Made by a program: the position numbers and the translations under genes. The notes beneath the pieces were generated by a model. The model worked only from the letters and a program-made list of their open reading frames with translations, was not told the DNA's origin and ran no database searches. From a virus: a DNA stretch of 64,000 nucleotides. Within the stretch, counting starts at the first letter, position 1. The number at the start of each line of letters is the position of its first letter. The DNA lies in the IMG/VR virus record IMGVR_UViG_3300033145_001096, positions 1 to 64,000 of that record. The stretch is one strand, 5' to 3'. Positions 4,665 through 46,719 of the stretch are shown here, piece after piece.

Positions 4665-5090
4665 TTAATTCTTTTCCTTTTCAGAATCAGTTATTTCTAT
4701 TAGAGGCTCTTTAGAATAATGCAAAGGTTCGTGTGCTAATACTCTGGGAGTTTTCATATTTCTACTTCTAAAATTCTGTAACTTCTTAGATATTTCATAT
4801 GCTATTTGAGCATTACCAATTTCCTTCATACCTACTCCATAAGATTCGTTTTGCTGCAATTCAGGGAAAAGTATAGGTTTTATTAAATCTTGTATATAAG
4901 ACCCAAGCTTATATCCCATAAAAATTTCAATATGACCTTCTGATTCTTGATTATATTCTAAAGGTTTCCCTCTCATATTACTAATACCTCGTTCTATTTC
5001 GCTTAATTGTCCAGAACACATTCTACTCATTGAGTCTAAAGCTTGTTCTATAATTAAAGCTTGCTTTTCTGTGCATTTTATATTTATCAT
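4665..5090 (-). CDS. Conserved phage hypothetical protein
   Basis: 141 aa; begins MINIKCTEKQALIIEQALD. Predicted helical and soluble, without recognised catalytic motifs. Adjacent genes on both sides read in the same direction with minimal spacing. Confidence 0.55.
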   Translation of the reverse strand: MINIKCTEKQALIIEQALDSMSRMCSGQLSEIERGISNMRGKPLEYNQESEGHIEIFMGYKLGSYIQDLIKPILFPELQQNESYGVGMKEIGNAQIAYEISKKLQNFRSRNMKTPRVLAHEPLHYSKEPLIEITDSEKEKN

Positions 5091-5104
5091 TTTATTTCTC
5101 CTTT

Positions 5105-5197
5105 TTAAAAAACATTCTTACATATTATATATAAACAAATTAATATAATTGTGCTTATTATTATTACAAAGTTAATGTCTTTTTCCCAATTTTTCAT
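5105..5197 (-). CDS. 30 aa single-pass membrane peptide
   Basis: ATG at 5197 overlaps the stop of the SprT-like gene by ATGA. After MKNWEKD comes a hydrophobic segment of about 17 residues (residues 9-25). A small phage membrane protein of unknown role. Confidence 0.45.
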   Translation of the reverse strand: MKNWEKDINFVIIISTIILICLYIICKNVF

Positions 5198-5775
5198 TTT
5201 TCTTCCTCTGTAAATTCATTGTTACAATTTAAACATTTAGCTTGTAAATTAGTAGCACATCTTATTGTAGTGCATCCACAATTATATTTTTTCATTTTAG
5301 TAGGAGCAGTAACTGTAAAACGATTCTTACGATACAGCTTAAATACTTTATAATTTATATTTGCTTGTTTAATGATATTGTCTAAATTATTTGATAAAGA
5401 TGTTATTGCCCAACCATGTCTACCACTTTTTTCTACGTTTAAACCGTAAATTTCGGCTTTTTCTTTAAATTTTTTATTATGATAATTTTGATTGTTACAG
5501 TCTTTTATTTTCTCACAATCATTTGTATAATGAACCATTTCATGAATTAGAGTTTCTATTGGATTTTTATTTAAGCTTTCAGCACAAATGTTAATCTCTC
5601 CAAATTCGACTTTATCCTTTTGCCATTTGTTATTCCAATACCAACCTAATGTTTCTTTTTGTCTTCCTTTTGACTGTATAGTAATAAGAGGCTTAGATTT
5701 AAGTTTAAATCTTTTAGCTAAAAAACAATAAGTCTTTTCTAATTCTTGAATGATAGGAACGATACTATTATCCAT
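5194..5775 (-). CDS. SprT-like zinc metalloprotease
   Basis: 193 aa. Active site HEMVHYTND (HExxH) at residues 88-92 and a C-terminal zinc ribbon of paired cysteines (CGCTTIRC, CLNC), the two-part layout of the SprT/Spartan family, which acts on DNA-protein crosslinks in cells. The substrate here is unknown. In an operon rich in DNA repair nucleases. Confidence 0.85.
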   Translation of the reverse strand: MDNSIVPIIQELEKTYCFLAKRFKLKSKPLITIQSKGRQKETLGWYWNNKWQKDKVEFGEINICAESLNKNPIETLIHEMVHYTNDCEKIKDCNNQNYHNKKFKEKAEIYGLNVEKSGRHGWAITSLSNNLDNIIKQANINYKVFKLYRKNRFTVTAPTKMKKYNCGCTTIRCATNLQAKCLNCNNEFTEEEK

Positions 5776-5926
5776 TTAAACTCTCCTTTAAAAGCTTTAT
5801 ATATTCCTCATAGGCATAAACTCTTAAAATCTTACCTTCAATTTTAGGTAATTCTCTGAATTCACCTGGCTGTGGATATTCTACACAATCCAATAGGAAA
5901 TCTATTAATTCCCAAGTCTTATCCAT
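5768..5926 (-). CDS. Small acidic hypothetical protein
   Basis: 52 aa, starting MDKTWELIDFLL. Overlaps the stop of the gp47-like gene and the start of the SprT-like gene. Well placed between two recognised genes but not recognised itself. Confidence 0.5.
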   Translation of the reverse strand: MDKTWELIDFLLDCVEYPQPGEFRELPKIEGKILRVYAYEEYIKLLKESLNG

Positions 5927-6791
5927 TTAAAGCCTCCTTCAACATATCTCTTACATCTTTATCATTAATTTTGTTTATACCATCTGCAATTATTTCTTCA
6001 AGTTTCTTATTAGATGTAGATGCTTTTTCTACTGTTTCGACTTCCTTTTCAAAATCTAATTTTACTTTAAAAGTATGAAACTTATTCTTAAACTTATGTA
6101 TTTCGTTTATACTTTTCTTAAAATCAGCAAAAGAGTTTATCACTAATCTTGCCTTAATATTTTTATTTGCTTTTTCTAATGCATCTAAAGAAAAAAAATC
6201 TTGCATTTTTATTGGGGATTCGAGTGTAACAAACTCTATCTTATTATTATCAGTAAGAATAGCAACTCGTTTAAATTCGTCCGTAACTTCGTTAAAGTGC
6301 TGATAACGTATTGACCCAATATGAAATATGGTATCTGTAAATTTTTGTGGTTCATGCTGGTGGGCAAGGACGGCATAATTATACTTCTCTAAATCCTTAA
6401 CTCCACACTTACCTGTTCCATATTCCAATTTTGACGAATAAAGCATATGATGACCATAATAAACATTATCTTCTATAAAATGGTCTTTCGTTATTATTTT
6501 AATTTTGCCACTTAATTCTTTTAAATATTCTATAATAGCTACGTTATTTAAAAATTCGTGAGTGCCATTTCCTGCTAATAATATAACTTCTTTGTATAAA
6601 GTTGACATTTTATGTATTAATTTAGTAGCAAATTTTATTTCTTTTGGCGTAGGTCTATTCTTATCAAATAAATCTCCAAGCTGAATAACCCTATCTACCT
6701 TAATTTTAAAAATATCATTATCAAAAATAGAGTCTATTTCTTTAATACTTTCATCGGAAATATGAATATCCCCTATTAATAAAGTTCTCAT
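5919..6791 (-). CDS. SbcD/Mre11-like (T4 gp47-like) nuclease
   Basis: 290 aa metallophosphoesterase-fold nuclease, partner of the ATPase at 1.4-2.8 kb. Motifs: LIGDIHIS (DxH), QLGDLFD (GD), LAGNGTHE (variant of GNHD/E), YGHH and VLAHQHEP. The pair resects DNA ends for recombination-dependent replication in T4-like systems. Six small genes separate the two subunits, unlike the adjacency usual in T4. Confidence 0.88.
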   Translation of the reverse strand: MRTLLIGDIHISDESIKEIDSIFDNDIFKIKVDRVIQLGDLFDKNRPTPKEIKFATKLIHKMSTLYKEVILLAGNGTHEFLNNVAIIEYLKELSGKIKIITKDHFIEDNVYYGHHMLYSSKLEYGTGKCGVKDLEKYNYAVLAHQHEPQKFTDTIFHIGSIRYQHFNEVTDEFKRVAILTDNNKIEFVTLESPIKMQDFFSLDALEKANKNIKARLVINSFADFKKSINEIHKFKNKFHTFKVKLDFEKEVETVEKASTSNKKLEEIIADGINKINDKDVRDMLKEALNG

Positions 6792-14692: not shown

Positions 14693-14825
14693 AATAATCA
14701 CCTTTTTTTGTAATATTTTTATAAGGAGTTTTTTTCCTACTTATAATCATTCCAAGTTCAATGTCTATTTTCACCCACATTTTAGTTTTTGGATTCTGTA
14801 ATTGAACATATCTATTGTTTTTCAT
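14679..14825 (-). CDS. Small conserved phage protein
   Basis: 48 aa with YVQLQNPKTKMWVKIDIELG and a basic C-terminus, a phrase I associate with small phage proteins of unknown function. ATGA overlap upstream. Confidence 0.5.
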   Translation of the reverse strand: MKNNRYVQLQNPKTKMWVKIDIELGMIISRKKTPYKNITKKGDYYETS

Positions 14826-15193
14826 AATTTCTCTCCAGAAGGTTTGTTATTTTTATATTCACAAACAAATATCTTTAACTCTTTCTTTTTAGCAAGTTCT
14901 ATCATCATTTTAGTTCCTTTAGATATACCATCCCAGATTGCAATTAAAGCATCTGCATATTCTGCCATTTGTATATTTCTTATATAACCTGCTCCTTTTC
15001 CATATTTATCCCAATTAGCTGGAAATAATTTTAACTTTATATTGTTCTCTTTTGCAAATCTTTCCCCCAATTTATCCACACCTCTCGCATTACCTGATAC
15101 TATTTCACTAATATCAAAATTAGATTTTTTTATTGTATTGACTATAATGTTATAATTATTTATATTTCTACTCCCCGCTATTATAATCTTCAT
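14822..15193 (-). CDS. SLOG-superfamily nucleotide-binding protein (DUF2493-like)
   Basis: 123 aa. MKIIIAGSRNINNY at the start and VSGNARGVDKLGERFA, then ADALIAIWDGISKGTKMMIE, are the signature of the DUF2493/YpsA-like branch of SLOG Rossmann proteins, which bind nucleotide derivatives. No enzymatic role can be fixed. Confidence 0.8.
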   Translation of the reverse strand: MKIIIAGSRNINNYNIIVNTIKKSNFDISEIVSGNARGVDKLGERFAKENNIKLKLFPANWDKYGKGAGYIRNIQMAEYADALIAIWDGISKGTKMMIELAKKKELKIFVCEYKNNKPSGEKL

Positions 15194-18355: not shown

Positions 18356-18931
18356 TTAATTCTCCCTTGTTAATCCAGCTAAAGCAAGCACAACCGCATC
18401 TGCCTTATCATTATCAGTTAATTTCAATTCTATTCCTAATGCAGCATTTACATAAGAAATAATTTCTTTTTTTAAATAAGGTCCTTTTACACTTTTATCT
18501 GATTTCTTAAATTTAATCTTTCTTCTTGCTGTTGTAGGTAATTCAAAATGACATTCTTGAGAACATCCTCTTAAACGTTCGTATACCAAGATACCGAATC
18601 GAGCGAGCGATTTAAGTGTTTTAACATTTTTCCCAAAGAAACAATCTTCGATAACAACTTTATTTAAATTAATATATGATATAATTTCTCTTTTAATTTG
18701 GTCAATTTGTTCCAAAAACGAATCTGCACTTAACAAAAAGTTTTTATTATTCTTAGGAACCTTAATAACATCTAATCTCTCTACAATTAAATAAGAATCG
18801 GTAGTTCTTATTAATGCTAATCCTGTAGAATGCATAGATACATCTACTCCTAATATAACTTTATTACGAGCTAAATTCACTTCTAAAAAAGCTTCTACAG
18901 TATTAATCTTTATTTTTTTAAGAGGTTTCAT
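18356..18931 (-). CDS. RuvC-like Holliday junction resolvase
   Basis: RNase H-fold nuclease, 191 aa from ATG 18931. Catalytic acidic residues are in LGVDVSMHSTGLAL, KVVIEDCFFGKN and DNDKADAVVLAL, matching the RuvC D-E-D pattern. I used the ATG that overlaps the HNH stop (ATGA). Resolves junctions made by the RecA homologue. Confidence 0.85.
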   Translation of the reverse strand: MKPLKKIKINTVEAFLEVNLARNKVILGVDVSMHSTGLALIRTTDSYLIVERLDVIKVPKNNKNFLLSADSFLEQIDQIKREIISYINLNKVVIEDCFFGKNVKTLKSLARFGILVYERLRGCSQECHFELPTTARRKIKFKKSDKSVKGPYLKKEIISYVNAALGIELKLTDNDKADAVVLALAGLTREN

Positions 18932-19515
18932 TTCCAATTCTCCATTATATAAATATAATATGCATACCAATAGCCTCTATTTCCGTTAGTTTTCATATGG
19001 CATATCTGGCATAAACTTATTAAATTATTTAAGTTTAAATTCTCTTTAACATAATCAACATGATGAACGTCTAATGCTTTTCCATTTTCTTTTTGAGTGC
19101 GATTGCATTCAGGATTTTGACAAGTATAATTATCCCTTTCTCTTATTTGTTCTTTTAATTTTTTTGTCCAAGTAGTTGGATATGGTTCGAAAGATTTACC
19201 ATTTTCCCAACGAGGATGTTTTGTTCGGTCTTTAAATCGTTCTTTCCAAAACTTACTCATTTTTTGCTTAGTCGCAATTGAAAATATTTTACCTGTTAAC
19301 GCTTTTGACACCGATTTACTAATTCGCTGCTTGTGTATTATTGTTAATTTTTTTCCAGTATGAGACTTACTCATTTTTTGTTTGGCTTTTTCTGTATGTC
19401 CAAATTTATCATGACAATATATCGAACAAAAGATTCTCTTAGCATGTTTATAACTTTCAAAGCTCTTGCCACAATACAAACAATTTTTAATTATTAGCTT
19501 AACTTTTATTCTCAT
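18928..19515 (-). CDS. HNH homing endonuclease with NUMOD3-like motifs
   Basis: 195 aa. N-terminal zinc finger (CLYCGKSF, CSIYC), NUMOD3-type repeats (SKSHTGKKLT, SKALTGKIFS) for DNA recognition, and an HNH core (RERDNYTCQNPECN, LDVHHVDYVKEN, LISLCQICH). Ends GYWYAYYIYIMENWK, nearly the ending of the HNH at 21384-22130. Overlaps the primase-helicase end by 17 bp. Confidence 0.88.
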   Translation of the reverse strand: MRIKVKLIIKNCLYCGKSFESYKHAKRIFCSIYCHDKFGHTEKAKQKMSKSHTGKKLTIIHKQRISKSVSKALTGKIFSIATKQKMSKFWKERFKDRTKHPRWENGKSFEPYPTTWTKKLKEQIRERDNYTCQNPECNRTQKENGKALDVHHVDYVKENLNLNNLISLCQICHMKTNGNRGYWYAYYIYIMENWK

Positions 19516-21391
19516 CTTCTTCCTTTTGTAATTCTTTTATAAGTTTCAATTCTTTAGTATTCCAGTCATATCGACAAGGCAAAGGACATAACCCGCCTTT
19601 GTATTTGGCATCTCTGTTTTTATCTATTCTATATTCTCCAAACTCTCCTGTTTCATCATCGCTGTATACATATCTACAAGCGAATGCAGGGAATTGTTTA
19701 ATTAAATCTTTTGCTAACCACTCGTTGTTGTCTCGCAACTGAACAAAAACAATAGCAATTCCTTTTGTTTTTTGTAATTTTTCTGTAAAATATTTAAGAA
19801 GTTTATCTGTTTCTGCATAATTATTGGGGCATAACCAATCCACAATTGTAATAGCATTATTTTCCAATTCGATTTTGTTTGAATCTGCTATTTCGTCCCA
19901 CTTGAAATCTCCTTCTTTCAATCCAAGTTGTAGAGCTATTTTACTCCATCTACTGCCAGACTCAAGAGATACATAATAAGGGTTTTTATTTTGTTTTACA
20001 AGTTTTTTTACTATATTCATCGATATATGGGTTTTCCCAGCCGAGTTTTTACTACCAATTAAAATCAAATCTCCATAATTAAAATTCATAATATCATCAA
20101 AATAAGGCATTTTAAAATCTATTGGAATTCCTATATTTATTAAATTTGTTTTCCAATCTGCTTTAGTAACAGTAGAATAATTTGCTCTATTCTTAACAAT
20201 AACCTCTTCCTTTACCAAATAACCTAATACTTTATCAACTCTCTTTTTATCTTCTCCTCTATTTGTTCCTACTACTGCCATAGCAATTTCTGTTCTATTT
20301 GCTTCTTCAACATGCTTTAAATAATCAATTATTTCTTTCGCTAAAACAGACTCATCCATAGTCACATATTTATTAAGCTGTCTAAGCATATCGTTGATTG
20401 TTTTAGGTGACATAGGTTTTTCTAATAAATGTTTATTTAAAATATGAAGAACTTGTCCTGTTTGTTTTATAGGTAAGATTTTACGGATTACTCCACCCAA
20501 CTTAGTAAATTCAGTATTACAGCATCCCTCTAACCCATTATTTTTTAATTGTAAGTCTTTTGGGTTAATTTTAAAATTTTCTTTTTCTATTGCTTCTCTA
20601 ATACCTTCGCTGTAAGTTTTTTGTGGAATTGTAACTTTACTTTTTATCAGTTTCTTTAATTCATCTGGCATTTTTATTATAGAATTAAAAGTTAACTTTC
20701 TTTTTATTCCATTTATTAAACTCGGCGAAATAACCACCTGTCCCCCGTCATTTTCCAAATCTATTTTGTATTCGTCTATTCTCGTTTTAGGTAAATCTTC
20801 TTCATATTTATAAAAAAGATGCCAACCATTTGTGCTCTCTTGTATAAGAGTTTTTCCCATAATTTTTTTAATTGCTTCTGGTATAGGCTTTTGGTCCACG
20901 TCTAAAATTGTAACTCCACTCATTTTCCCTGTTTTCACCCCAATATTTAATCCATCAGCCAACCACCTACGCCACTCATCTATATCTTTATGATTCTTAG
21001 TCGTCCACGCTGTCTCAATAGGAATCTTCTGATTTTTTGCAATAGCAACCAAATCAAAATTATTCTCTTCATAAAACTTTAACAACTTCTCAGTATTATC
21101 TTCATCTATCTTTGTCACCATTTCTATTTTCAATAATTCTTTCAAATAATGTATTTGTTCTATTTCTTTTGAAGGAAATTTATTTTCTAATTTTTTAGCC
21201 AAATCAAAAATATCATAATTTTTCTTACAAGCGTGGCAATTGAATTTGTTGACGTTTGGTATCTTAATACATAATTGTTCAGCCTTACAAAAAACACAAT
21301 CAATTAAAAGAGTAGGTCCTCTTTTTGTTATCTTTATTCCTTTTAATTTCAAATATTCTAATAGCTTGTTTTCGATAATTATTCTATTCAT
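19499..21391 (-). CDS. Primase-helicase (zinc finger, prim-pol, RecA-like helicase)
   Basis: 630 aa from ATG 21391 (MNRIIIENK), which overlaps the upstream HNH stop; a longer frame would start inside that gene. CVFC...CHAC CHC2-like zinc finger (residues about 30-55), a prim-pol region (GVTILDVDQKP, STNGWHLFYKY), a winged-helix-like middle and a C-terminal helicase core with Walker A GSKNSAGKTH. Makes primers and unwinds DNA for the family B polymerase. Flanked on both sides by HNH genes. Confidence 0.85.
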   Translation of the reverse strand: MNRIIIENKLLEYLKLKGIKITKRGPTLLIDCVFCKAEQLCIKIPNVNKFNCHACKKNYDIFDLAKKLENKFPSKEIEQIHYLKELLKIEMVTKIDEDNTEKLLKFYEENNFDLVAIAKNQKIPIETAWTTKNHKDIDEWRRWLADGLNIGVKTGKMSGVTILDVDQKPIPEAIKKIMGKTLIQESTNGWHLFYKYEEDLPKTRIDEYKIDLENDGGQVVISPSLINGIKRKLTFNSIIKMPDELKKLIKSKVTIPQKTYSEGIREAIEKENFKINPKDLQLKNNGLEGCCNTEFTKLGGVIRKILPIKQTGQVLHILNKHLLEKPMSPKTINDMLRQLNKYVTMDESVLAKEIIDYLKHVEEANRTEIAMAVVGTNRGEDKKRVDKVLGYLVKEEVIVKNRANYSTVTKADWKTNLINIGIPIDFKMPYFDDIMNFNYGDLILIGSKNSAGKTHISMNIVKKLVKQNKNPYYVSLESGSRWSKIALQLGLKEGDFKWDEIADSNKIELENNAITIVDWLCPNNYAETDKLLKYFTEKLQKTKGIAIVFVQLRDNNEWLAKDLIKQFPAFACRYVYSDDETGEFGEYRIDKNRDAKYKGGLCPLPCRYDWNTKELKLIKELQKEEDENKS

Positions 21392-22130
21392 TAATTTTCT
21401 CCATAGTATAAGTATAGTAAGCATACCAATAATCTCTTTGATTAGAAGCATTTACGTTGCAGTTTTTGCAGAGAGTTATTAAGTTATATTCGTTACAGTT
21501 TTCTTTATCATAGTTGATATGATGAATTTCTAATACCTTGTTATATTTCTTTAAATGCTCTTCTTCTGTTAATTTGCATTCTGAATTTTGGCAAATGAAA
21601 CTATCTCTTTTGCGGATTTTATTTTTTAATTTTTGTGTAAATTTTGTGGTATAAGGTAATCTTCCTAAGCCGTCTTTATATCTATAATGATTTTTACCCG
21701 TGTGATTTTTTCTATATTCTTCGTCTTTCCACATATTTTTATAACTACAAGAACGACATCTACCAGAACCATAAACTCCAGACCACATTGTTATTTCTGC
21801 CCCGCAATCTATACAATAATATTGTTTATTAGTTCTTCCGTCTATATAAGAAGGGTGTAATTTACCTTTTTTTGGGAATGTTTTTTTTCTTTCTATCTTT
21901 GTGCAAATATATTTTTGAGAACAAGAACGACATCTTTTATGTTGGTAATTGCTAATTTTAACTCCGCAGTCGATGCAGTAATTCGCATTTTTACTTCTGC
22001 CATCTATATATCTGGGATGGTTTTTTGGATTTTTATAAAATTCTTTCATAATACAACTTTTACATAGATTACTTTTGCTGTAACCTTTAGTTCTTCTTCC
22101 GCAGAGTTTACATTTAAATTTATTTTTCAT
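21384..22130 (-). CDS. HNH endonuclease with repeated zinc modules
   Basis: 248 aa. Three repeats of the form (H)P.YIDGR...YCIDCG...RCRSCS, each with two CxxC pairs, precede an HNH core (RKRDSFICQNSECK, LEIHHINYDKEN, LITLCKNCN). Similar modules occur in the HNH at 59.7 kb and the fragment at 47.7 kb. Immediately upstream of the primase-helicase, overlapping it by 8 bp. Confidence 0.85.
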   Translation of the reverse strand: MKNKFKCKLCGRRTKGYSKSNLCKSCIMKEFYKNPKNHPRYIDGRSKNANYCIDCGVKISNYQHKRCRSCSQKYICTKIERKKTFPKKGKLHPSYIDGRTNKQYYCIDCGAEITMWSGVYGSGRCRSCSYKNMWKDEEYRKNHTGKNHYRYKDGLGRLPYTTKFTQKLKNKIRKRDSFICQNSECKLTEEEHLKKYNKVLEIHHINYDKENCNEYNLITLCKNCNVNASNQRDYWYAYYTYTMEKINE

Positions 22131-22778: not shown

Positions 22779-23135
22779 TTATAATCTTTTACGAATTCTA
22801 TTAGGCATTAAGCTGTTTAAAGCGTATAAAAAGACATTTGGACGTTTAAATCCATTTAGCCCTCTTCTTCTATAAGGATAATAAATATATGTAACATAAA
22901 ATAAATAACTCATGCAAGCAGAAGCGAAAATCCCGATGCACAGTATATAAAAGTCTACAATCACAATTGCATATACTATTCTTACTAAAGTGTTTAATAT
23001 AGAGATATTAACGAATTTTCTTGATTGTGTTTTGGCAGTTTTTGTTTTTATTATTTTCCTGCCCTGCCAAACATATTTGTATGCATCAAAAAGCCCTGTG
23101 ACTATTAGCAATATACCAATTATATTCTTTAACAT
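22779..23135 (-). CDS. Integral membrane protein
   Basis: 118 aa; hydrophobic segments near residues 3-20, 50-65 and 68-88, with basic loops. Located downstream of the M42 peptidase. Not recognised. Confidence 0.5.
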   Translation of the reverse strand: MLKNIIGILLIVTGLFDAYKYVWQGRKIIKTKTAKTQSRKFVNISILNTLVRIVYAIVIVDFYILCIGIFASACMSYLFYVTYIYYPYRRRGLNGFKRPNVFLYALNSLMPNRIRKRL

Positions 23136-23324: not shown

Positions 23325-24395
23325 TTATTTTTCAATAACGCTATTTATTTTCTTACTTGTTAAAAATTCAGTTAAAAGTTTAACCCCATTATTCAAATCT
23401 TTCATGTTAATTATCTCAACGGAGGAATGCATGTTTCTTAGAGGTATCGCAAGGTCTACTATCTTAATCCCTCCACAAGTATTAGCCACAGATTTAGCAT
23501 TGGTTCCCCCTGCATCAGCAGTGGCTAAATATTGTATCTTTATTTTGTTATTATTTGCTATAGAATTTATTAAATTAACAGATGGTTGATGGATATTTAC
23601 CCCTTTATAAATCACCATGCCTTGTCCAAGAATACATCTTCCTACTCGTCTTTCGTCTACGTCTGGTTGGTCTGTAGCAAAAGTTACATCTACACCAATG
23701 AACAAATCTGGTCGAATCTTATAAGCTAACTCTTTCGCTCCTTTACAGCCTATTTCTTCTTGAACGCTAAAGCAAAATTTTAATGTAGGAAGTGGTTTCT
23801 TTTTTTGCCGTATAATATTTTTAATTGTTTCAATAAGCATATAACAACCTGCTTTATCATCAAATCCCGACCCCATATAGAATCCATCAGTTAACTCGTC
23901 GAATTCAGGCTGTAATACAACTGGGTCTCCTATAGAAACAATTTTACATACATTTTTTTTACCTCTTATTCCAATGTCTACTGTAACATCACTCGTTCTA
24001 TCAGGCACTTCGTCAACTTCTTCTTCAATTAGATGGATAGGTTTGCATCCAATAACTCCTTTGATAATTTCTTTTTTACTATTTAAAATTAAAACTTTTC
24101 TTCCCCTTAATAAAGAAACGTCATGTCCGCCTATTGGAACTAAAGAAATATAACCTCCTTTATCTATATTATTAATTAAAAAACCAAGTTGGTCAGAATG
24201 AGCGTCTATTGCTATAGTTTTGTCAGTCTTTCCTTTAATGGTAGCTACTACATTGTTATGAAAATCAATACTGACTCTTGTTCTTGGCAAATAATTTAAT
24301 AATTCTTTTTTAATATACTCAGCTAACTTTCTCTCATATCCAGATGGAGAAGCACACATAACCAGGTCTTTTAATAATTTAATATCTTTATTCAT
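23325..24395 (-). CDS. M42-family glutamyl aminopeptidase/FrvX-like
   Basis: 356 aa, full family length. Metal and catalytic motifs: DAHSDQLGF (first metal His/Asp), GSGFDDKAGC (bridging Asp), SVQEEIGCKGA (catalytic Glu-Glu), GVDVTFATD and MHSSVEII (last His). Cleaves N-terminal residues from peptides as a large oligomer in cells. It is the first gene after the promoter at 24.4 kb, so probably well expressed. M42 enzymes are rare in phages. Confidence 0.9.
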   Translation of the reverse strand: MNKDIKLLKDLVMCASPSGYERKLAEYIKKELLNYLPRTRVSIDFHNNVVATIKGKTDKTIAIDAHSDQLGFLINNIDKGGYISLVPIGGHDVSLLRGRKVLILNSKKEIIKGVIGCKPIHLIEEEVDEVPDRTSDVTVDIGIRGKKNVCKIVSIGDPVVLQPEFDELTDGFYMGSGFDDKAGCYMLIETIKNIIRQKKKPLPTLKFCFSVQEEIGCKGAKELAYKIRPDLFIGVDVTFATDQPDVDERRVGRCILGQGMVIYKGVNIHQPSVNLINSIANNNKIKIQYLATADAGGTNAKSVANTCGGIKIVDLAIPLRNMHSSVEIINMKDLNNGVKLLTEFLTSKKINSVIEK

Positions 24396-25051: not shown

Positions 25052-25279
25052 TTATCTTTTATTTTTCCGCCAGTGAATAATTCCATATATATTCATTGCA
25101 AATAAATAAACAGAAATAGCTGATAAACTTGTAGTATTTAGCATTATACCTATTACCATATATATAGCATTGGCTAATCCAAACCAATAAAATCCAGATA
25201 TCTTCTTCCTTGCTATAAGAAAGGAGCCAACCACGAAGCCTATATTAGCTGACCAACCGAGCATATCAGTTAATTGCAT
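25052..25279 (-). CDS. Small PnuC-like membrane protein
   Basis: 75 aa from ATG 25279 (MQLTDMLGW), overlapping the transporter stop. Three hydrophobic helices with GWSANIGFVVGSFLIARKK, YWFGLANAIYMVIG and NIYGIIHWRKNKR resemble part of PnuC nicotinamide riboside transporters or related small phage proteins. Too short for a whole PnuC. Confidence 0.5.
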   Translation of the reverse strand: MQLTDMLGWSANIGFVVGSFLIARKKISGFYWFGLANAIYMVIGIMLNTTSLSAISVYLFAMNIYGIIHWRKNKR

Positions 25280-26460
25280 GAGTTTTCTCCTATTTTTAAA
25301 TAAGGAATGAATCCAAGACAAATTAATGTAAATATTCCACTTACTATAATAAGCCATTCTAATCCTATTTTAGGATATAACCATCCCCCTATAACTCTAC
25401 TTCCCATAGCTCCTAAATTTAATACACTACAAATTCCAGCAAATGTAAATGCTTCTGCTTCTTTAGGTGTTATTCTTGCAACATAATCTAATATAACCAA
25501 ATGACTTATCATACCAAATATTCCAAATATTACAGCATAAATCAAAGCTATTTGCCAATTAGGATAATATAAATAACAAAAAGTTGTAACACCCGCTAAG
25601 AAAGTAGTTATATATAATAACTTTTTAAGATTTATTTTTTTACATATCTTCCAATATATAACTGCTCCTAAAATCCCAAACGCACTTCCTGTTGTGCTTA
25701 ATAGACCTATAAAAATTTTATCGAAATGAAGAGAATCTCTCATTTTAAACATCAATGCTAATCCAAATGATGGACTGAACCATAAACAAAATAAAAAGGC
25801 GAGTGCCAACCACAATTGTTTACTTTTTATTGCTTTTTTAATTCCTTTAAAACTCTTTGTATTAACTTTTTCTTTTCTTTTTTCTTCATTGTATTGCGTT
25901 ATCATATAAGTTAATATTCCACCTATAAACATGACAACAAGTAAATTAGCTATTCTATAATTTAAATACTTAGCAATTACTCCACCAACTACTCCTGTAA
26001 TTAGACTTGCTACAGAAATAGCTCCCCATTGAATACTTTGAAATTTTCCCGTGAGATTGTATTTCTGCCCTTTAGCTACCATTATACCATCACAGGCTAC
26101 ATCATTCATGGCAAAACAGGTCGCACATAATATATTTATAATAATTAAACTTTGAATATTTAACCCAAAAAAGAATATATACATCCCTAATAACATAATT
26201 AAGATATAATTGATAATTAAGTAAGATTTTCTCCTATAACCGAATAAAGGAAAGGTATCGCTTATTATCCCATAAATAGGCTTAATCGTCCAAGGAATGG
26301 TGGCTAAAGCCCCAATATAGGCTATTTTATCGACAGTTAGCCCCCAAGTCTCTTTCATTAGATAAAAGATACTTTGAGAAGGAAGTCCATAGATTCCTTG
26401 ACCAAAATAGACCAAAGCAAAAAGAAAATAATATTTTAAATATTTATTTTTCTTCTTCAT
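25270..26460 (-). CDS. MFS transporter of the folate-biopterin (BT1) type
   Basis: 396 aa, about 12 membrane helices. YFGQGIYGLPSQSIFYLMKE, PWTIKPIYGIISDTFPLFGY and RRKSYL match the N-terminal signature of BT1 folate/pteridine transporters; PKEAEAFTFAGICSVLNLG near the C-terminus fits too. Would be a host-envelope importer made during infection. Coupled to the LOG gene and the PnuC-like gene. Confidence 0.7.
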   Translation of the reverse strand: MKKKNKYLKYYFLFALVYFGQGIYGLPSQSIFYLMKETWGLTVDKIAYIGALATIPWTIKPIYGIISDTFPLFGYRRKSYLIINYILIMLLGMYIFFFGLNIQSLIIINILCATCFAMNDVACDGIMVAKGQKYNLTGKFQSIQWGAISVASLITGVVGGVIAKYLNYRIANLLVVMFIGGILTYMITQYNEEKRKEKVNTKSFKGIKKAIKSKQLWLALAFLFCLWFSPSFGLALMFKMRDSLHFDKIFIGLLSTTGSAFGILGAVIYWKICKKINLKKLLYITTFLAGVTTFCYLYYPNWQIALIYAVIFGIFGMISHLVILDYVARITPKEAEAFTFAGICSVLNLGAMGSRVIGGWLYPKIGLEWLIIVSGIFTLICLGFIPYLKIGENSCN

Positions 26461-27101
26461 TATATCATAAACCTCTTTCTCCTACCATTATATTCTTTTT
26501 CTATAATATCAATAACTTCTTCTATACTATCTGTTACTTTAAATAAATTATAATCTCTTTGATTAATTTTTTTGTCATCTTTCAAATATCTAAGCCACTC
26601 TATCAACCCTTTATAAAATTTAGTTCCAAATAATATAAACGGTCTTGATGGAATTTTTTCGTTTTGCAACACGGCAAATTGGTCCATGATTTCATCAAGT
26701 GTGCCATATCCTCCAGGACAAGCAATAGAAGCGAAAGAGTATTTTGTGAACATTACTTTTCTTGTGTAAAAATGTTTAAAAATAATATAGTGATTAATAT
26801 AATCATTTTTATCTTGAAATTTAGGAAGTTCTATATTTAATCCAACCGAAATTCCACCTGCATCATAAGCTCCTTTATTTGCAGCTTCCATAAGCCCCTT
26901 ACCTGCTCCAGTAATAATGGAATATTTCTTTTTCGCTAATTTATAAGCTAATTCATATGTAGATTTGTATTGAGAGTTATCAGGTTTTGTTCTCGCAGAC
27001 CCAAAAATAGCTATACCTCTTTTAATCTGACCTAAATACTCAAAACCTCTACCAAATTCATCTCGAATCCTATTAAGCCTTTTTCTATCAGATTTCCTCA
27101 T
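26460..27101 (-). CDS. LOG-family nucleoside 5'-monophosphate phosphoribohydrolase
   Basis: 213 aa. Contains IFGSARTK, ITGAGKGLMEAANKGA and the family signature CPGGYGTLDEIMDQ. LOG proteins cleave a base from nucleoside monophosphates (AMP or cytokinin nucleotides). Its product base and ribose phosphate might enter nucleotide or cofactor metabolism. Stop touches the transporter ATG. Confidence 0.85.
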   Translation of the reverse strand: MRKSDRKRLNRIRDEFGRGFEYLGQIKRGIAIFGSARTKPDNSQYKSTYELAYKLAKKKYSIITGAGKGLMEAANKGAYDAGGISVGLNIELPKFQDKNDYINHYIIFKHFYTRKVMFTKYSFASIACPGGYGTLDEIMDQFAVLQNEKIPSRPFILFGTKFYKGLIEWLRYLKDDKKINQRDYNLFKVTDSIEEVIDIIEKEYNGRRKRFMI

Positions 27102-27544
27102 TTAATCCCCATTCTTTCATCATATAATTTTTGAAAAGCATTAGCATACAATTTATCAGCTCCATTTATATATTTAAGTAAATAATCGATTGCTCGTAAA
27201 TAATATTCTGGATAAAGTTTTTTAATTGCATTTAATGCGAAATCTTCAGCTTCATATTCTTTTTCTTCTAAACTTAAATAATGGTTAATTGTAAAATGAT
27301 TTTTCCGCACATGCCCCATCTCATGGAGAGCTCCTAACATGACTTCAAGTTTATTTTGTAATTTCTTAGCGTTATATTTTATAAGATAGCATTCTTTTTT
27401 ATCTCCGTCAACATAGTTATATAAATTTATAGATAAACCTCTTACTCTATTATCTCGTTTAATAGTAAAATGGTCTTTTGGAAAATGTAATCTCTTTTCC
27501 ATTTCTTCTACAAAATTTATAAATAACTTTTCATTATTTGTCAT
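27098..27544 (-). CDS. Zincin-type metalloprotease-like protein
   Basis: 148 aa with GALHEMGHVRKNHF (HExxH) and downstream Glu residues (LEEKEYEAEDFA). Layout resembles ImmA/IrrE-like or other minigluzincins. No fused HTH domain. Substrate unknown. Confidence 0.65.
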   Translation of the reverse strand: MTNNEKLFINFVEEMEKRLHFPKDHFTIKRDNRVRGLSINLYNYVDGDKKECYLIKYNAKKLQNKLEVMLGALHEMGHVRKNHFTINHYLSLEEKEYEAEDFALNAIKKLYPEYYLRAIDYLLKYINGADKLYANAFQKLYDERMGIK

Positions 27545-27707: not shown

Positions 27708-28151
27708 TTATCTCCTTTTCCATTTTGAATCTAAAATCGTCCGTCCATTCATATGCTCTATCTCATGTTGAATTGCTATACAAATCACACCATCTTCTTC
27801 TAAAGTATATATAAATCTTTTTCCATTATTCTCTATTTCTACTTCTTTGTAACGAATTGTATCTACATAAATTCCAGGAAGAGAAAGGCATCCTTCGTTT
27901 TTCATCATAAATCTATCATACTTTTCTATAATTTTAGCATTAATTAAATCTATTGAAATCTTTTGTTGGGGAATTCTTATTATTGCTACTTTTTCTGGAA
28001 TTCCTATCTGAATTCCACTCAATCCGATTCCATTTTTATGTTTTGATAACTCTTTTTCTAATAAATCTACAATTCCATTGATTCGATTCTTATTTGCTTC
28101 TTCTGATTTTGTTTTTAATTCTTCTATATTATAAATAATTGATTTTATCAT
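27708..28151 (-). CDS. def: Peptide deformylase
   Basis: 147 aa. All three family motifs are present: GIGLSGIQIG (motif 1), EGCLSLP (motif 2, metal Cys) and QHEIEHMNG (motif 3, HExxH). Lacks the C-terminal helix of long bacterial enzymes, like other phage deformylases. Removes formyl from nascent proteins, the step before the methionine aminopeptidase at 0.65 kb. Confidence 0.95.
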   Translation of the reverse strand: MIKSIIYNIEELKTKSEEANKNRINGIVDLLEKELSKHKNGIGLSGIQIGIPEKVAIIRIPQQKISIDLINAKIIEKYDRFMMKNEGCLSLPGIYVDTIRYKEVEIENNGKRFIYTLEEDGVICIAIQHEIEHMNGRTILDSKWKRR

Positions 28152-29345: not shown

Positions 29346-29475
29346 AACGCTTCCTTTCCTCATTTTCTTTTAGCATATAATATTTAAGTTGCATAAAGCA
29401 CTTTATTGCACCTCTTAAAGTTTTATCTAATCTTAGTTTTCTATAAAATTGATTATTAACTCTTCCTCTACTCAT
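29326..29475 (-). CDS. Small charged protein
   Basis: 49 aa starting MSRGRVNNQFYRKLRLDKTL, with an acidic/basic helical end. ATG overlaps the protease stop. Confidence 0.45.
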   Translation of the reverse strand: MSRGRVNNQFYRKLRLDKTLRGAIKCFMQLKYYMLKENEERKRYEKEED

Positions 29476-30388
29476 AATTTGGCTCCTTTAAGAAAATTTT
29501 AATTTCTTTTAAACTAACACATCTTCCATAATTTTGAGCAATAATTCCAAAAGGACTTACTTTAGATAACCCCATAAACTGTATCAATACCCCTACCACT
29601 TTACCTTTATATAATAAAGAACCACCACTGTTACCAAACCAAATCTTATTAGTAACAATATAATATCCCTTTTTATCCACCTGTGTAATTATACCATCAG
29701 TAATCATATCTACTATACCATTAGGGTTGCCTACTATAATAACTTCACTTCCTTCTTTAGGAGCTTCAGTAGCTATTTCAAGATAAGAAGTATTTTTTAA
29801 TTGTGGAACTTTAAGCAATGCTAAATCCTTTTTCTTATTATACTTTACTATTTCTGCTTTAGATTGTGTTCCAGAATCAGATTCAATGACTAATAAATTA
29901 TCTTCTATTTTTTGTTCTATTAAATGGGCACAAGTAAGGACATAACTTTCTCCATTTATTTTTATATGTGTTCCAGAACCCATAAAGCCATATGCTAAAT
30001 TCTTAATTAAAACGTTAGCCTCTTTTATCTTAGCAACTTTTTTTAAATCAATATCTTTTTTAGAATTTATTTTCTTTTCCAGTTTATCAAAATATTTATT
30101 AAATTCTTTTATAGCAGTTGTTGTAAGATTTAAAGCGTCAGAAATTACAGATTCTAAATAATCAATTTTGATTTTCGACAGTTGCTGTAATTTGATTGTA
30201 GTTAAAACAATTTTTTCTAATTCTTCTATTAATTCTTCTTGATATTGGGCTAATATATCTATCTTATTTTCAAGCATAGAAATAAAAGTTCTTTGCTCAT
30301 AACAAGTATAAGATATACATCCTAATACTATAAGATTTAATGTTAATAAAGTTGTTAAAATAATTCTTCCAATGCTGAATTTATTCAT
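29468..30388 (-). CDS. Membrane-anchored or secreted trypsin-like serine protease
   Basis: 306 aa from ATG 30388 (AAGGAG upstream); a longer frame begins within the HNH gene. An N-terminal hydrophobic segment ending LIVLGC could be a signal anchor or lipobox. A coiled-coil region follows, then a DegP/trypsin fold: LTCAHLIE (His), KKDLALLKV (Asp), WFGNSGGSLLYKG (Ser). Likely acts outside the cytoplasm. Uncommon in phages. Confidence 0.82.
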   Translation of the reverse strand: MNKFSIGRIILTTLLTLNLIVLGCISYTCYEQRTFISMLENKIDILAQYQEELIEELEKIVLTTIKLQQLSKIKIDYLESVISDALNLTTTAIKEFNKYFDKLEKKINSKKDIDLKKVAKIKEANVLIKNLAYGFMGSGTHIKINGESYVLTCAHLIEQKIEDNLLVIESDSGTQSKAEIVKYNKKKDLALLKVPQLKNTSYLEIATEAPKEGSEVIIVGNPNGIVDMITDGIITQVDKKGYYIVTNKIWFGNSGGSLLYKGKVVGVLIQFMGLSKVSPFGIIAQNYGRCVSLKEIKIFLKEPNYE

Positions 30389-31046
30389 AATTTGCTCCTT
30401 TTTTATAATTTTCAGTTGCCCATAAGGGTTGTAAGTTAGTGTAATTAAAGCATTTACGTTGTTCGGAGGGTTTGGATAAATCGAACAATGAACAAGGTTT
30501 GATATGGCCAATGTGCCAACCATAAAACCCGTGATTTTTCCAAGTCATTCCTTTTGTAAACTGATTTTGTAAATGGTTCTTTAAGAATTCTATCGAACAA
30601 CCAAGCAGCTTTTTCGTAGATGCTGCTTTGGAATTTCTTTTTATTGCATGATGTAATCTATCTCTTAAAGTAACTAATATTTTATAATTTGAGTCTGTCT
30701 TCAATCTTTTTTTTCTTAAATTATTTCGCTCTATTTTATGAAATTTATGGTATTTTCTCATCCTTCTTAATATTTCTTTTTTATGAGTTTCTCTGTAATC
30801 TTTTGATTCTTGTTTGTGAGATTCATAATATATTTTACTGTATTCTCTTCGTTCTTGTTTATGAGCTTCTTTATATATTCTACCTTTAATAGCAATTTCC
30901 TCTTTGTTATCCAAGTAATATATTTTTCTATATATCTTAATGCAATCTTTACATGAAGAAGATAACCCATCTTTATGATTTCTATTTTTAGCGAATTCTA
31001 TAATTGACTTAATTATTTTGCACTTTGAGCAAGTTTTAGTTTTCAT
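30381..31046 (-). CDS. HNH homing-type endonuclease, paralogue of 9997-10851
   Basis: 221 aa from ATG 31046. CSKC and CKDC zinc finger, basic linker with repeated (A/S/T)HK(Q/K)E..(E/D)Y(R/S), and HNH core GWHIGHIKPCSLFDLSKP, YTNLQPLWATEN. The first His of the catalytic group reads HIGH where its paralogue has HIDH, a possible loss of activity. Inserted between ClpP and the serine protease. Confidence 0.85.
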   Translation of the reverse strand: MKTKTCSKCKIIKSIIEFAKNRNHKDGLSSSCKDCIKIYRKIYYLDNKEEIAIKGRIYKEAHKQERREYSKIYYESHKQESKDYRETHKKEILRRMRKYHKFHKIERNNLRKKRLKTDSNYKILVTLRDRLHHAIKRNSKAASTKKLLGCSIEFLKNHLQNQFTKGMTWKNHGFYGWHIGHIKPCSLFDLSKPSEQRKCFNYTNLQPLWATENYKKGANYE

Positions 31047-31072
31047 TAGAAACAAACCCTTTGTATTTTTAA

Positions 31073-31678
31073 TTAATTTAATATTTCGTCAATAATCCCA
31101 TATTTTAAGCATTCTTCTGAATATAGCCATAGTTCTGCGTTTCTTGCTTTTGTTAATTGAGTTTCTGAAAGTTTTGTTTGTTTTTTTAGCATTTTAAATA
31201 GTTTAGATTGTAGCCTTTCCATATTTTCAAATCTATATTTCATTTTAGTTGCATAATCATAGCCCCCTCCACACATATCATGTGCCATCCAAACAGAATT
31301 TTTGCACATATATCTCTTATCTCCAAATATAGAAATAATTGCTGCCATAGAAGCAGCTTCTCCATTAATAACAGTAAATACAGGAGATGATAATCCCGCC
31401 ATACAATCGATAATGGAAAGCCCATCATAAACACATCCCCCACGAGAATTTATATAAAGAACTATAGGAGTTTTACGGCGATAAACATCTAATGCTATTA
31501 GTTGAGTAGTAATTTTATGAGCTTGTTCTGTATCTATTACACCAGAAAGAAAAATATGCCTATTATGCAATAATATTTGTTCTGGTTTAATTTCGTTCTT
31601 ATAATTAAGTTTATTTGAACGTTTACGTTTTCTCTTTTTAACAGTGGATTTCTTTCTTTTAATCGTTTTCTTAGCCAT
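31073..31678 (-). CDS. clpP: ClpP-family serine protease
   Basis: 201 aa. A strongly basic N-terminal extension (1-25) precedes a ClpP core: LYINSRGGCVYDG, INGEAASMAAII (catalytic Ser110) and VWMAHDM (His133). No ClpX or ClpA gene is visible in the window, so it may dock on host unfoldases or act as a prohead-type protease. The early position, far from structural genes, favours a host-directed role. Confidence 0.88.
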   Translation of the reverse strand: MAKKTIKRKKSTVKKRKRKRSNKLNYKNEIKPEQILLHNRHIFLSGVIDTEQAHKITTQLIALDVYRRKTPIVLYINSRGGCVYDGLSIIDCMAGLSSPVFTVINGEAASMAAIISIFGDKRYMCKNSVWMAHDMCGGGYDYATKMKYRFENMERLQSKLFKMLKKQTKLSETQLTKARNAELWLYSEECLKYGIIDEILN

Positions 31679-35001: not shown

Positions 35002-35616
35002 TTATTCCTTTGGTTCTTCTTTTTCTTTTAAACTTACAGTTTTTTTACATTTGCTTAATTTATACATATAAATCTTTTCTTCTATTAATCTAAAAATCCC
35101 TTTAATAAATTGAGTAATCAAAACCCTCAAACTTTGGATTTTTCTATCATATCTAATGGCAATATAATCTGTTAACTGTTTTTTATTATCAAATAATCGT
35201 CCACCAGAATCTTCTACAAGAAACAATGCCCATTTAGAAAGTTTAATTTTTGATTCTGACCAAACAAGATATATAGGTTTATGTAATCTCCACGCTTCAG
35301 CCATCTCATGTATTGTGCCAGTAGTCTTTATATCTGGAAATAAATGCACTATAATAAAATCACTTTTATGAACCATCCTTAAATCTTTTGCCACTATTCT
35401 TTTAAAATTGTCTTTAAATATTTTATAGTTTCCAGAACAAATCCATCCATTGAATTTTTCTTGTGCCTCTACAACAGTCATGTTTGTTACTAATGGCTCA
35501 GTTTTGCATGGGTCTTGAATATATATGCCAGCTTCATCTAAAGCAGGAGTCATAGCATCTCTCCAAGCAACTCCACCATCTTTTTTAGCGAATTCAATTG
35601 CACCTGCTACCGTCAA
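35002..35616 (-). CDS. Nucleoside 2-deoxyribosyltransferase-like, N-terminus interrupted
   Basis: About 204 aa. AGAIEFAKKDGGVAWRDAMT, DPCKTEP, VHKSDFIIVHLFPD and GTIHEMAEAWRLHKPIYLVW match phage nucleoside 2-deoxyribosyltransferases. The first strand and initiator Met are absent: the frame opens at TTG 35616 without a ribosome binding site. The missing start seems to lie at 36168-36185, beyond the HNH gene. A basic C-terminal tail of about 55 aa is additional. Confidence 0.75.
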   Translation of the reverse strand: MTVAGAIEFAKKDGGVAWRDAMTPALDEAGIYIQDPCKTEPLVTNMTVVEAQEKFNGWICSGNYKIFKDNFKRIVAKDLRMVHKSDFIIVHLFPDIKTTGTIHEMAEAWRLHKPIYLVWSESKIKLSKWALFLVEDSGGRLFDNKKQLTDYIAIRYDRKIQSLRVLITQFIKGIFRLIEEKIYMYKLSKCKKTVSLKEKEEPKE

Positions 35617-35650: not shown

Positions 35651-36151
35651 CTAACATTTGGCATCACCTCCTTCAATAATTTCAGGAACAGTTTTCCAAA
35701 GTTTTCCATATATATTTTTAAACCAATTCATATAATCTTCAACCAATCCTTTTTCGACAAGATAATTATAAGTTTTACTATGAAATTTTCTATGCCCGCC
35801 GTTAGAAAAAATCATAAAATTTTCTAATATATCATTTTGTTTGTTATTGTCTTTGTGGTGGATATGCTCTTCAGATTTTAATTTTTTTCCTATTAAACGT
35901 TCTATAATATATCTATATGCATATTGAACTTTTCCATTTAAAGATAACACAAATCTTCCACAAGAACTTAAATGAATTCCTTTATAATTATGAGGTTTAT
36001 TTCCTTTTTTAAATTCTGTTTTAGGAGAAAAGCGTTTACCTTTCATGGAAATGTTCATACATTTAACACTACAAAATTTTGCAGTGTTTTTTCGATATGA
36101 ATAAATTTCCATTTTTGTCTTACAAATTTGACATTCTTTTATAATTTTCAT
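35651..36151 (-). CDS. HNH endonuclease inserted in the deoxyribosyltransferase gene
   Basis: 166 aa from ATG 36151 (AGGTG upstream; a GTG at 36163 is possible). Treble-clef start (CQICKTK, CSVKC), then an HNH core KSEEHIHHKDNNKQNDILEN FMIF, typical of phage HNH proteins with AP2-like neighbours. It occupies nearly all of a 557 bp insert splitting the deoxyribosyltransferase. Confidence 0.85.
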   Translation of the reverse strand: MKIIKECQICKTKMEIYSYRKNTAKFCSVKCMNISMKGKRFSPKTEFKKGNKPHNYKGIHLSSCGRFVLSLNGKVQYAYRYIIERLIGKKLKSEEHIHHKDNNKQNDILENFMIFSNGGHRKFHSKTYNYLVEKGLVEDYMNWFKNIYGKLWKTVPEIIEGGDAKC

Positions 36152-36167
36152 TCTATTTGACACCTGA

Positions 36168-44519: not shown

Positions 44520-44935
44520 ACATCCTCCTCTTTTTTCTTTTTTCTAATCTTCTTTTTAGTAGGAGTTTTCTTTTTCTTAGTATTCCCCCGCTTAGTTTTC
44601 TTATTCATTAAGTAAAAATCTATCAATAAATTATTCCAATCGTCATCTGTCATTTTACCAAATTCTTTTTGCATTTTATCAATTATTTTTTTATGTTCTT
44701 CCTTTAATCTTCTAATTGCTACCCATTTTTTCTCGTTTTCCCAATCCTTTAAACCTTTTTCGCAATCAGGACAATCAGAATAATTCTTTCCAAAAGGTTT
44801 ATTGTTATCTGTAAATAATTCGGATATATAATTACAATGATTACATTTGAAAAAATAAGTATTATCATTTAAATAAGGCATATTTCTTTGTTCTACCATA
44901 CAATGACCGCATTTAGGACATTTCATATGATTCAT
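44516..44935 (-). CDS. Zinc-ribbon protein with basic tail
   Basis: 139 aa. CPKCGHCM, CNHCNY and CPDCEKG, then a coiled coil and a run of Lys (KKKKTPTKKKIRKKKKEE). Probably binds DNA or RNA. Directly follows the recombinase gene. Confidence 0.55.
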   Translation of the reverse strand: MNHMKCPKCGHCMVEQRNMPYLNDNTYFFKCNHCNYISELFTDNNKPFGKNYSDCPDCEKGLKDWENEKKWVAIRRLKEEHKKIIDKMQKEFGKMTDDDWNNLLIDFYLMNKKTKRGNTKKKKTPTKKKIRKKKKEEDV

Positions 44936-46719
44936 TTTTTTGGTCTCCGTTTGATTTTCATTATTTTTCTAAATTCTTCTTCTCTGTCAGTGTCAGACAT
45001 TTCCTCATATATTAATGTTGCACTTCTTGATTTATGACCAAGTAAAGACTGTAAATTTTTCCCTTTGCCTCCTTTTTTCAAATAAGCAATCGAAAAACTA
45101 TTTCCAGTTATAAATGCTTTGCCGTTTCTTTTGGCAATCCAAGTTCCAGTTTTAGTTGTGGGACACCAAATAACACCTTTATATTTTATTTTGGATATAT
45201 TACGCTTATACAAACAACAGTAATCTCGATTGGATATATATGTTCTAAATTTTCCTCCGTTAATTTTTATTGTAGCTCTATATCCAATACACAAACACAA
45301 TGCTTGAAAAAAATTAAGTTTTTTAATATCTTGGTCGCAAAATTCCTTTTTACTTCCGTCTCCTAACATCATAGAGTTGTAAACTTCTTTTAATTCAGTT
45401 TGTTTTAATTTTAAAATCTTATATTTTGGTGAATTGTTTTCATTTATCCAATCATATATCCATTTAGTATCTTTTTTTAGTATTCTAAAAATTACCATTT
45501 GGTAGAGGTTTCCATTGAAAATATTTATTTTTTGTTTTTGAATATGCTTTGTAAATTTTAATCCAGATTTGATTAAAGTTTTTTCAATGATTTTACATTT
45601 GCTTTTATTGGCTGACAAAGATTGTGAGATAGTTACATCTTTCTGTTGTGAAATGTGTCCGTCTGTCATTATCCAACCCAATAAACTTGCTTTTTGTTTA
45701 CCTATTGACAAATGCCCTTTTGTTTTTCCACTTAATAAATGCCAGCTTCTTCTATTTGGAGAGAAAGTTAACCATTTTTCAAATTTCATAGACTTCCACC
45801 CTACAAAATTATCATACGTTTTATTTCTTATCATTTTACCTTTATCTACATTTATTATAATATTATGATTAGAAGTTAGAATATAATCCAAACTATTATT
45901 TTTTATATGATTAAGATTTCCGTTATAAGTATATACGTTAATTCTCTGAATATTATCTATTTCAATTTTTTTGGTATTTAAATTATAAGAAAATACCTTT
46001 TCTTCAATTTCTAATTCATTATATTTTTTCCATCCATTCTCTGTTAATATTTCTGTATCTTCACTTACACAATGCCTAAAGGTATGGGGGTGTATATGTT
46101 TATTTAAATTTTCACTTAATATTTTACAATAGTATCTTACTGTTCCATCAGTGAAACCAAATACATCTTCGCCCGCAGTGTTATCAAAATATAATTGTAT
46201 TAAATCTGCCATTTGGTTTGGATAAAATACTACAATAGGATTTTTAGCTTTTCTTTTTTGAATGTTTATTCTTTTATTTTTTAAGTCAAAATCTTGCTTC
46301 TTTAAATTAGCTATTTCCCCTACTCTTAAACCAGTATAAAACATTAAATAAAATAAACATCTAACTTTTATATCATCTTTAAATAGCATATCAACAGAAG
46401 GTATAATTTCAGAAAGAAAAAAGTCTTCGCTAAAATAATTAGGAATTTTTCGTTCCGCTTGTTTGAATTTGGGAATTTTTATATCCAACTCAAATATTCT
46501 TACCCATTTTATAAGAGCCTTTTTATATTGATTAATAGTGTTTAATGGATTTTCTAAATTAATAAAGAATTGATTAACATCTTCTTGAGATAAATTATTA
46601 AAATCCATTTTATCTGTTAAGAGATTGATACAAGATATATAAGACTTTATTGTTTTCTTAGCAAGCCCGTCTAATATCATTTGCTCTTTAAATTTATTTA
46701 ATAATTCTTTGATATTCAT
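44932..46719 (-). CDS. Tyrosine recombinase precursor interrupted by an intein
   Basis: 595 aa precursor; the mature recombinase would be about 271 aa. SAM-like N-terminal domain (1-90), catalytic Arg132 in YTGLRVGEIANL, His212-x-x-Arg215 in HPHTFRH, then the intein, then SFSIAYLKKGG, His562 in LLGHKS and Tyr571 in LIYEEM. Splicing would restore HTFRHSFSIAYL. Works as integrase or Xer-like resolvase. Expressed with a nuclease gene from the operator-bearing promoter at 47.47 kb. Confidence 0.93.
   Translation of the reverse strand: MNIKELLNKFKEQMILDGLAKKTIKSYISCINLLTDKMDFNNLSQEDVNQFFINLENPLNTINQYKKALIKWVRIFELDIKIPKFKQAERKIPNYFSEDFFLSEIIPSVDMLFKDDIKVRCLFYLMFYTGLRVGEIANLKKQDFDLKNKRINIQKRKAKNPIVVFYPNQMADLIQLYFDNTAGEDVFGFTDGTVRYYCKILSENLNKHIHPHTFRHCVSEDTEILTENGWKKYNELEIEEKVFSYNLNTKKIEIDNIQRINVYTYNGNLNHIKNNSLDYILTSNHNIIINVDKGKMIRNKTYDNFVGWKSMKFEKWLTFSPNRRSWHLLSGKTKGHLSIGKQKASLLGWIMTDGHISQQKDVTISQSLSANKSKCKIIEKTLIKSGLKFTKHIQKQKINIFNGNLYQMVIFRILKKDTKWIYDWINENNSPKYKILKLKQTELKEVYNSMMLGDGSKKEFCDQDIKKLNFFQALCLCIGYRATIKINGGKFRTYISNRDYCCLYKRNISKIKYKGVIWCPTTKTGTWIAKRNGKAFITGNSFSIAYLKKGGKGKNLQSLLGHKSRSATLIYEEMSDTDREEEFRKIMKIKRRPKK
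45100..46071 (-). mobile_element. Intein with DOD (LAGLIDADG) homing endonuclease
   Basis: 324 aa, residues 217-540 of the precursor. Block A starts CVSEDTEILTENGW, block B has LTSNHN (TxxH), the endonuclease has LLGWIMTDGH and YNSMMLGDGS, and the end is RNGKAFITGN followed by Ser541 as the +1 residue. The penultimate residue is Gly instead of the usual His. Insertion is inside the HxxRH box, four bases from the catalytic Arg codon. Confidence 0.92.

Follow-up and report, generated by a model that had tools for sequence, protein, structure and literature searches.

A phage from an uncultured virus collection encodes a complete BT1-type MFS carrier, the nearest cellular relatives of which are chromosomal genes of Omnitrophota that are located in a glycolysis operon. 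We consider it to be an auxiliary carrier of host origin which phages have captured from an Omnitrophota-type chromosome and which is connected with sugar metabolism, and we assign a probability of about one half to this reading, in which the substrate is deduced from the genomic context. There is hardly any doubt about the relationship to the Omnitrophota gene. The assignment of the carrier to a sugar-linked substrate class, for which the gene neighbourhood is the guide, has a chance slightly short of even. The analysis covers a stretch of 64,000 bases (referred to as the window), which belongs to an IMG/VR virus record 69,856 bases long.

The carrier gene belongs to a chain of four genes on the minus strand (27544-25052) which overlap or almost touch each other. 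A metallopeptidase-like ORF is followed by a LOG gene, the carrier gene, and a short PnuC-like ORF (Table 1). The first two genes overlap by 4 nt, and the LOG and carrier genes are joined by a TAATG junction. An earlier note, made from the sequence alone, had described the latter three genes as a coupled set. These genes are real, coupled, and encoded on the minus strand, but the chain begins one gene earlier, with an ORF that contains the motif HEMGH and has no Pfam match above the cut-off. The PnuC-like gene is also present as described, but its start is most likely at position 25279, preceded by an AGGAGA site, rather than at 25357. A scan for promoters and terminators gave results no better than those for shuffled sequence. 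Two IMG/VR contigs that are related to the window (L010/L111 and L012/L114) repeat this gene order, and the LOG and PnuC-like genes of the window and these contigs have dN/dS values of ca 0.1-0.2, so that the locus is more than a chance arrangement. The 173 aa ORF downstream of the chain shows 51-60% identity among the window, L111 and L114, and neighbourhood clustering detected it in 7 loci.

Table 1. Genes of the carrier locus and its surroundings (positions refer to the window).
Feature	Position	Strand	Evidence or remarks
HEMGH-containing metallopeptidase-like ORF, 148 aa, first in chain	27098..27544	-	syntenic homologues in L010 and L012
LOG-family nucleotide phosphoribohydrolase, 213 aa, type-II-LOG-like	26460..27101	-	PF03641 (1.4e-27), TIGR00730
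BT1-family MFS carrier, 396 aa, 12 TM	25270..26460	-	PF03092 (4.5e-36); AF2 model
Half-size PnuC-like membrane protein, 75 aa	25052..25279	-	PF04973 (1.3e-7); AGGAGA site
Conserved ORF of unknown function, 173 aa	24482..25003	-	syntenic in relatives
M42 aminopeptidase, syntenic neighbour	23325..24395	-	PF05343 (1.4e-74); M42 cluster in 6 viral neighbourhoods
SemiSWEET-fold 3-helix membrane protein, 118 aa, candidate second half-size carrier	22779..23135	-	fold, MtN3_slv
Peptide deformylase, recurrent neighbour of the carrier	27708..28151	-	PF01327 (3.1e-24); deformylase cluster in 13 viral loci

The family names proposed in the earlier note (BT1-type MFS, PnuC-like, LOG) are upheld by profile matches from Pfam and NCBIfam. 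For the carrier, the BT1 family is the best Pfam match, ahead of MFS_1 (2.7e-24); it scores 125 bits against a gathering score of 22 and covers positions 1-409 of the 432 in the profile. BT1 is also matched, at an E-value of 0.001 or better, by all 25 viral members. The AF2 model (pLDDT 90.7) has helices consistent with 12 TM segments and resembles many MFS carriers in the PDB, with VIA-align Z-scores of up to 37.6. Because so many different carriers match, the fold was dropped as a guide to the substrate, and so were the solved structures, where profile matches are weak (SLC37A4, 2.9e-4; multidrug resistance protein D, 2.6e-3). The muropeptide permease AmpG (TIGR00901; PDB 8zgz) has the MFS fold in common with the carrier and is the second- or third-ranked NCBIfam model for several family members, but with 40.3 bits the window carrier falls far short of the cut-off (350).

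The carrier family recurs in uncultured phages. An alignment-based scan detected at least 27 loci in IMG/VR, where single-sequence scans had found no MFS relatives. The alignment of the 25 viral members, which are 33-43% identical to the window protein, contains 19 invariant positions, and dN/dS is ca 0.04-0.13 between close pairs; the viral carriers are under purifying selection. The view that an MFS carrier is very unusual for a phage was borne out. Searches by tblastn with three different family members gave zero matches in 50,697 phage records, and a fold search of BFVD returned no phage MFS among its top matches, the significant ones being proteins of giant viruses and other eukaryotic viruses. 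Complete secondary carriers thus seem to be rare in phages. A precedent for phage MFS proteins is provided by phrog_2034, a 406 aa phage family of unknown function in PHROGs which matches the carrier at 2.3e-19; its best-scoring stretch against the window carrier is only a part of the profile. The open-licence literature that was searched contained no description of the carrier family in phages.

Omnitrophota were sampled twice, with 193 and 384 genomes, and close relatives of the carrier proved common in the phylum. In the larger set, 66 genomes have one (scoring at least 457 bits, or truncated), after which the scores drop to 294. The surroundings of 38 loci were retrieved, and in 35 of them tpiA or secG is found at most two genes upstream of the carrier gene, while marC-glgC usually follow downstream (gene names were assigned by NCBIfam). 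The best cellular matches of the window carrier (L206 and L208, 45% identity) are located behind pgk-tpiA; the viral carrier L113 reaches up to 59% identity to an Omnitrophota protein. In L023, a segment from an Omnitrophota MAG, the carrier relative is found between secG and rplM. That L023 is a misbinned phage contig was ruled out, since it is chromosomal and carries gap, pgk, tpiA, secG, rplM and rpsI. Even a more distant BT1 gene (L192) has the context malQ-pgk-tpiA-secG-BT1-galT-GH57. It is by this neighbourhood that the carrier is connected with the metabolism of sugars or glycogen. The Omnitrophota carrier, which has no name so far, has the same core residues as its viral counterparts, but it is encoded on a cell chromosome in a glycolysis operon, whereas the viral copies occur amid phage genes and are more diverse. 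On another MAG contig (L030), a LOG gene (2233-3003) with 43% identity to a phage LOG lies about 2 kb upstream of a BT1 carrier gene (4959-6152).

In a tree of 89 rows, the 25 viral and 33 Omnitrophota carriers form one clade (100/99). The viral rows are interleaved, and the viral label requires at least three changes. A single clade of viral carriers is rejected (p-AU 1.7e-41), and we regard such a virus-only clade as a sampling artefact. In an earlier tree, 21 Omnitrophota genes had formed one clade inside the viral diversity, which would have indicated transfer from virus to host. That reading was dropped after wider sampling, because the operon-located genes L206 and L208 stand beside another viral group (L103/L104, on a weak branch, 89/52) and because L192 occupies the same operon position. 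An old cellular carrier gene that has been captured by viruses more than once is the better fit, and repeated capture from Omnitrophota-type genomes, which we regard as likely, is the simplest reading. The viral subclade of the window carrier itself (11 rows) contains no cellular gene, so its donor is unsampled.

At the window locus, the carrier has been exchanged gene-for-gene, while LOG and the PnuC-like protein track the relationship of the phages. The carriers of the window and of L111 and L114 are only 42% and 39% identical, compared to 81% between L111 and L114, and a clade of these three carriers is rejected (p-AU 2.4e-4). For LOG, the corresponding values are 84%, 72% and 77%, and for the PnuC-like protein 75%, 65% and 71%. 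The GC3 of the carrier gene is similar to that of its neighbours, which argues against a fresh insertion; together with the diversity of the viral genes, their purifying selection and their phage-like composition, this disposes of the possibility, raised in the earlier note, that the genes are a recent host-derived insertion.

According to our preferred reading, phages would have taken the carrier gene from an Omnitrophota-type glycolysis operon (pgk-tpiA-secG-MFS, usually then marC and glgC). The carrier would be made during infection, be inserted into the inner membrane of the host and move a carbohydrate or a glycolysis-related metabolite, and it may thus keep up the flow of energy and precursors after the host has ceased to make its own transporter. 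LOG is expected to release the base and ribose-5-phosphate from nucleoside monophosphates, and the half-size PnuC to act as a dimer that moves a nicotinamide-riboside-like nucleoside. Both would bring salvage of nucleotides and cofactors into the same phase in this subgroup of phages. Some observations count against a sugar as substrate: neither secG nor marC is a sugar gene, and the operon pgk-tpiA-secG is widespread and can hold passengers. In addition, the genes that abound most around the viral carriers are those of proteases (M50, ClpP, deformylase) and not sugar genes.

These proteases lead to a different explanation, in which the carrier alters the envelope rather than feeding the cell, for example by superinfection exclusion or receptor blocking, or by taking part in membrane-protein quality control with M50, ClpP and deformylase. 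Among the 28 viral loci for which neighbours were counted, ClpP recurs in 16, the M50 site-2 protease in 14 and peptide deformylase in 13; M42, MgtC and amidoligase are further recurrent neighbours. The exchange of the carrier between conserved flanks is also what selection in an arms race predicts. However, the low dN/dS and the invariant residues common with cellular carriers point to conserved transport rather than to mere occupancy of the membrane, and this stretch of the window itself has no M50 protease. We consider an envelope function unlikely.

Viral contigs that are only distantly related share a recurrent block of deformylase, M50 site-2 protease, MFS carrier and ClpP (L105:6561-7196, with an M50 match at 6.2e-32, and the 8-kb flanks of L107, L111, L112, L114, L115, L117, L121-L123 and L127-L129). 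The window has an unusually large set of peptidases, consisting of an M24 methionine-aminopeptidase-like protein (648-1370), the M42 aminopeptidase (23325-24395), the deformylase (27708-28151), a trypsin-like protease (29468-30523) and ClpP (31073-31678).

The companions of the carrier have been assigned with differing precision. LOG scores 124.4 bits with TIGR00730 (cut-off 96.35), contains the motifs PGGYGTLDE (at position 129) and RKVMF, and has 5wq3 and 1wek as its closest PDB chains. It is a near full-length match to these type-II LOG phosphoribohydrolases, with their PGGxGTxxE motif, but it is phage-borne and predicted from sequence. It is far below the cut-offs of the cytokinin LOG equivalog NF058542 (42.8 vs 300) and of PpnN, NF038390 (33.9 vs 450). 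The PnuC-like protein exceeds the gathering score of PF04973 (32.2 vs 27.3 bits) but spans only positions 3-70 of the 175 in the profile. It thus corresponds to the first part of PnuC, which is a 7-TM protein at full length, and it misses the PnuC equivalog TIGR01528 (21.4 vs 42.45 bits). A profile search of the PDB gave no match for it.

It could be argued that these companions define the function, and that the four coupled genes serve nicotinamide or nucleotide salvage or a counter-signalling, where uptake by the PnuC-like protein and cleavage by LOG rebuild or destroy a nucleotide signal and the MFS carrier exports or imports the product. LOG and the half-size PnuC do flank the carrier in the window, in L111 and in L114, and the phage also encodes a SLOG/YspA-like protein (14822-15193) and a weakly matching nucleoside deoxyribosyltransferase-like protein (35002-35616). 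Yet LOG is near the carrier in only 4 of the 28 viral loci, and the PnuC-like gene adjoins it or is one gene off in 4, with homologues beside the carrier in L111, L114 and L124. The PnuC equivalog model is missed as well, and the survey of window proteins turned up no recognisable genes for NAD synthesis. We consider this explanation improbable, and the proposal of a fixed three-gene cassette is not sustained by these counts. A DUF7831 protein is encoded at 3192-3590. In one relative, an Amidoligase_2 gene (L012:1386-2012, 6.8e-19) is found between the LOG and carrier genes.

The earlier note had interpreted the carrier as a probable folate/pterin transporter; here, uptake of these compounds would serve phage nucleotide synthesis, with the half-size PnuC and LOG as further cofactor salvage. 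The carrier has BT1 as its best Pfam family, and it has a core in common with cyanobacterial folate/biopterin-family proteins (W57, K60, G64, D68, D120, D124, Q141, W145, E336, N348 and G358). However, TM7 (PSFGTxL) and several invariant positions, such as 298, 308 and 241, are unlike those of the cyanobacterial group. TIGR00788, the curated folate/biopterin model, has a cut-off of 216.4 bits; the window carrier reaches 97.9 bits and the other viral members tested 53-133, compared to 444 and 439 bits for two cyanobacterial proteins that served as controls. Of 26 related virus records, 3 contain a thymidylate synthase (ThyX in two, ThyA in one), and these all belong to the L103/L104/L108 branch; none was found in the other 23, some of which are fragments. 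As the nearest cellular genes, moreover, sit in a glycolysis/glycogen operon, we hold folate or pterin transport to be improbable too. The earlier reading is thus partly supported: the families, the coupling and the rarity stand, while folate/pterin transport and the fixed cassette do not.

The host of the phage is probably a member of the Omnitrophota, a phylum without isolates (PMC10066038). This is favoured by the ancestry of the carrier, by the occurrence of the phage's primase on a 4-kb phage fragment within an Omnitrophota MAG, and by the source of L012/L114, an Antarctic-lake co-assembly reported to have yielded genomes of Omnitrophota (PMC8542988). As the primase occurs in only 1 of the 384 genomes, the assignment is indirect, and the GC content (29% for the window phage vs 39-54% for the Omnitrophota operon loci) counts against it. 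Genes for glycolysis and for the transport of sugars are present in most genomes of Gorgyraia and Velamenicoccia (PMC10066038), in keeping with an auxiliary carrier that is linked to sugar. The viral carrier family offers a likely tie between orphan metagenomic phages and Omnitrophota, as well as a route to the substrate of a carrier found in roughly a sixth of the Omnitrophota genomes sampled.

The protein encoded at 22779-23135 has a predicted fold that resembles SemiSWEET. It stays below the gathering score of PF03083 (13.1 vs 23.7 bits), and MtN3_slv is matched by four of the five members of its family (best E 0.0021). With its AF2 model (pLDDT 78.5), the top 13 Foldseek matches in the PDB are all of SemiSWEET type (prob 1.0, although the best E-value is only 0.03), and VIA-align gives a Z-score of 9.7 that is tied with mitochondrial pyruvate carrier chains. 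Homologues occur directly upstream of the carrier unit in L124 and L127. Based on these models, the phage may possess two half-size carriers in addition to the full-size one. An Amidoligase_2 gene (L014:2392-3060) is located upstream of a SemiSWEET-like gene.

A more far-reaching proposal, which we regard as doubtful, is that Omnitrophota phages hold a dedicated uptake module, composed of the BT1-type carrier from the host glycolysis operon, half-size PnuC- and SemiSWEET-type carriers, and LOG, where gene-for-gene swaps would match the nutrients of the host. If this is true, infection would rewire what the cell imports. A conserved viral family with a counterpart in a glycolysis operon makes phage-controlled nutrient import of the host a concrete and testable case.

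A tyrosine-integrase-like protein of the window (44932-46719; PHROG integrase, 1e-26) has an extra internal stretch that matches thymidylate synthase and PhoH-like PHROGs and is probably an intein. The DNA polymerase B ORFs of three relatives are 1087-1310 aa long (L011:14737-18000, L003:9998-13930 and L014:13569-17078), compared to 763 aa in the window, which suggests inteins in these relatives. The window also contains many HNH-type or zinc-ribbon homing-endonuclease-like ORFs (18928-19515, 21384-22130, 30381-31055, 59697-60584 and 35651-36163), the sites of which vary between relatives.
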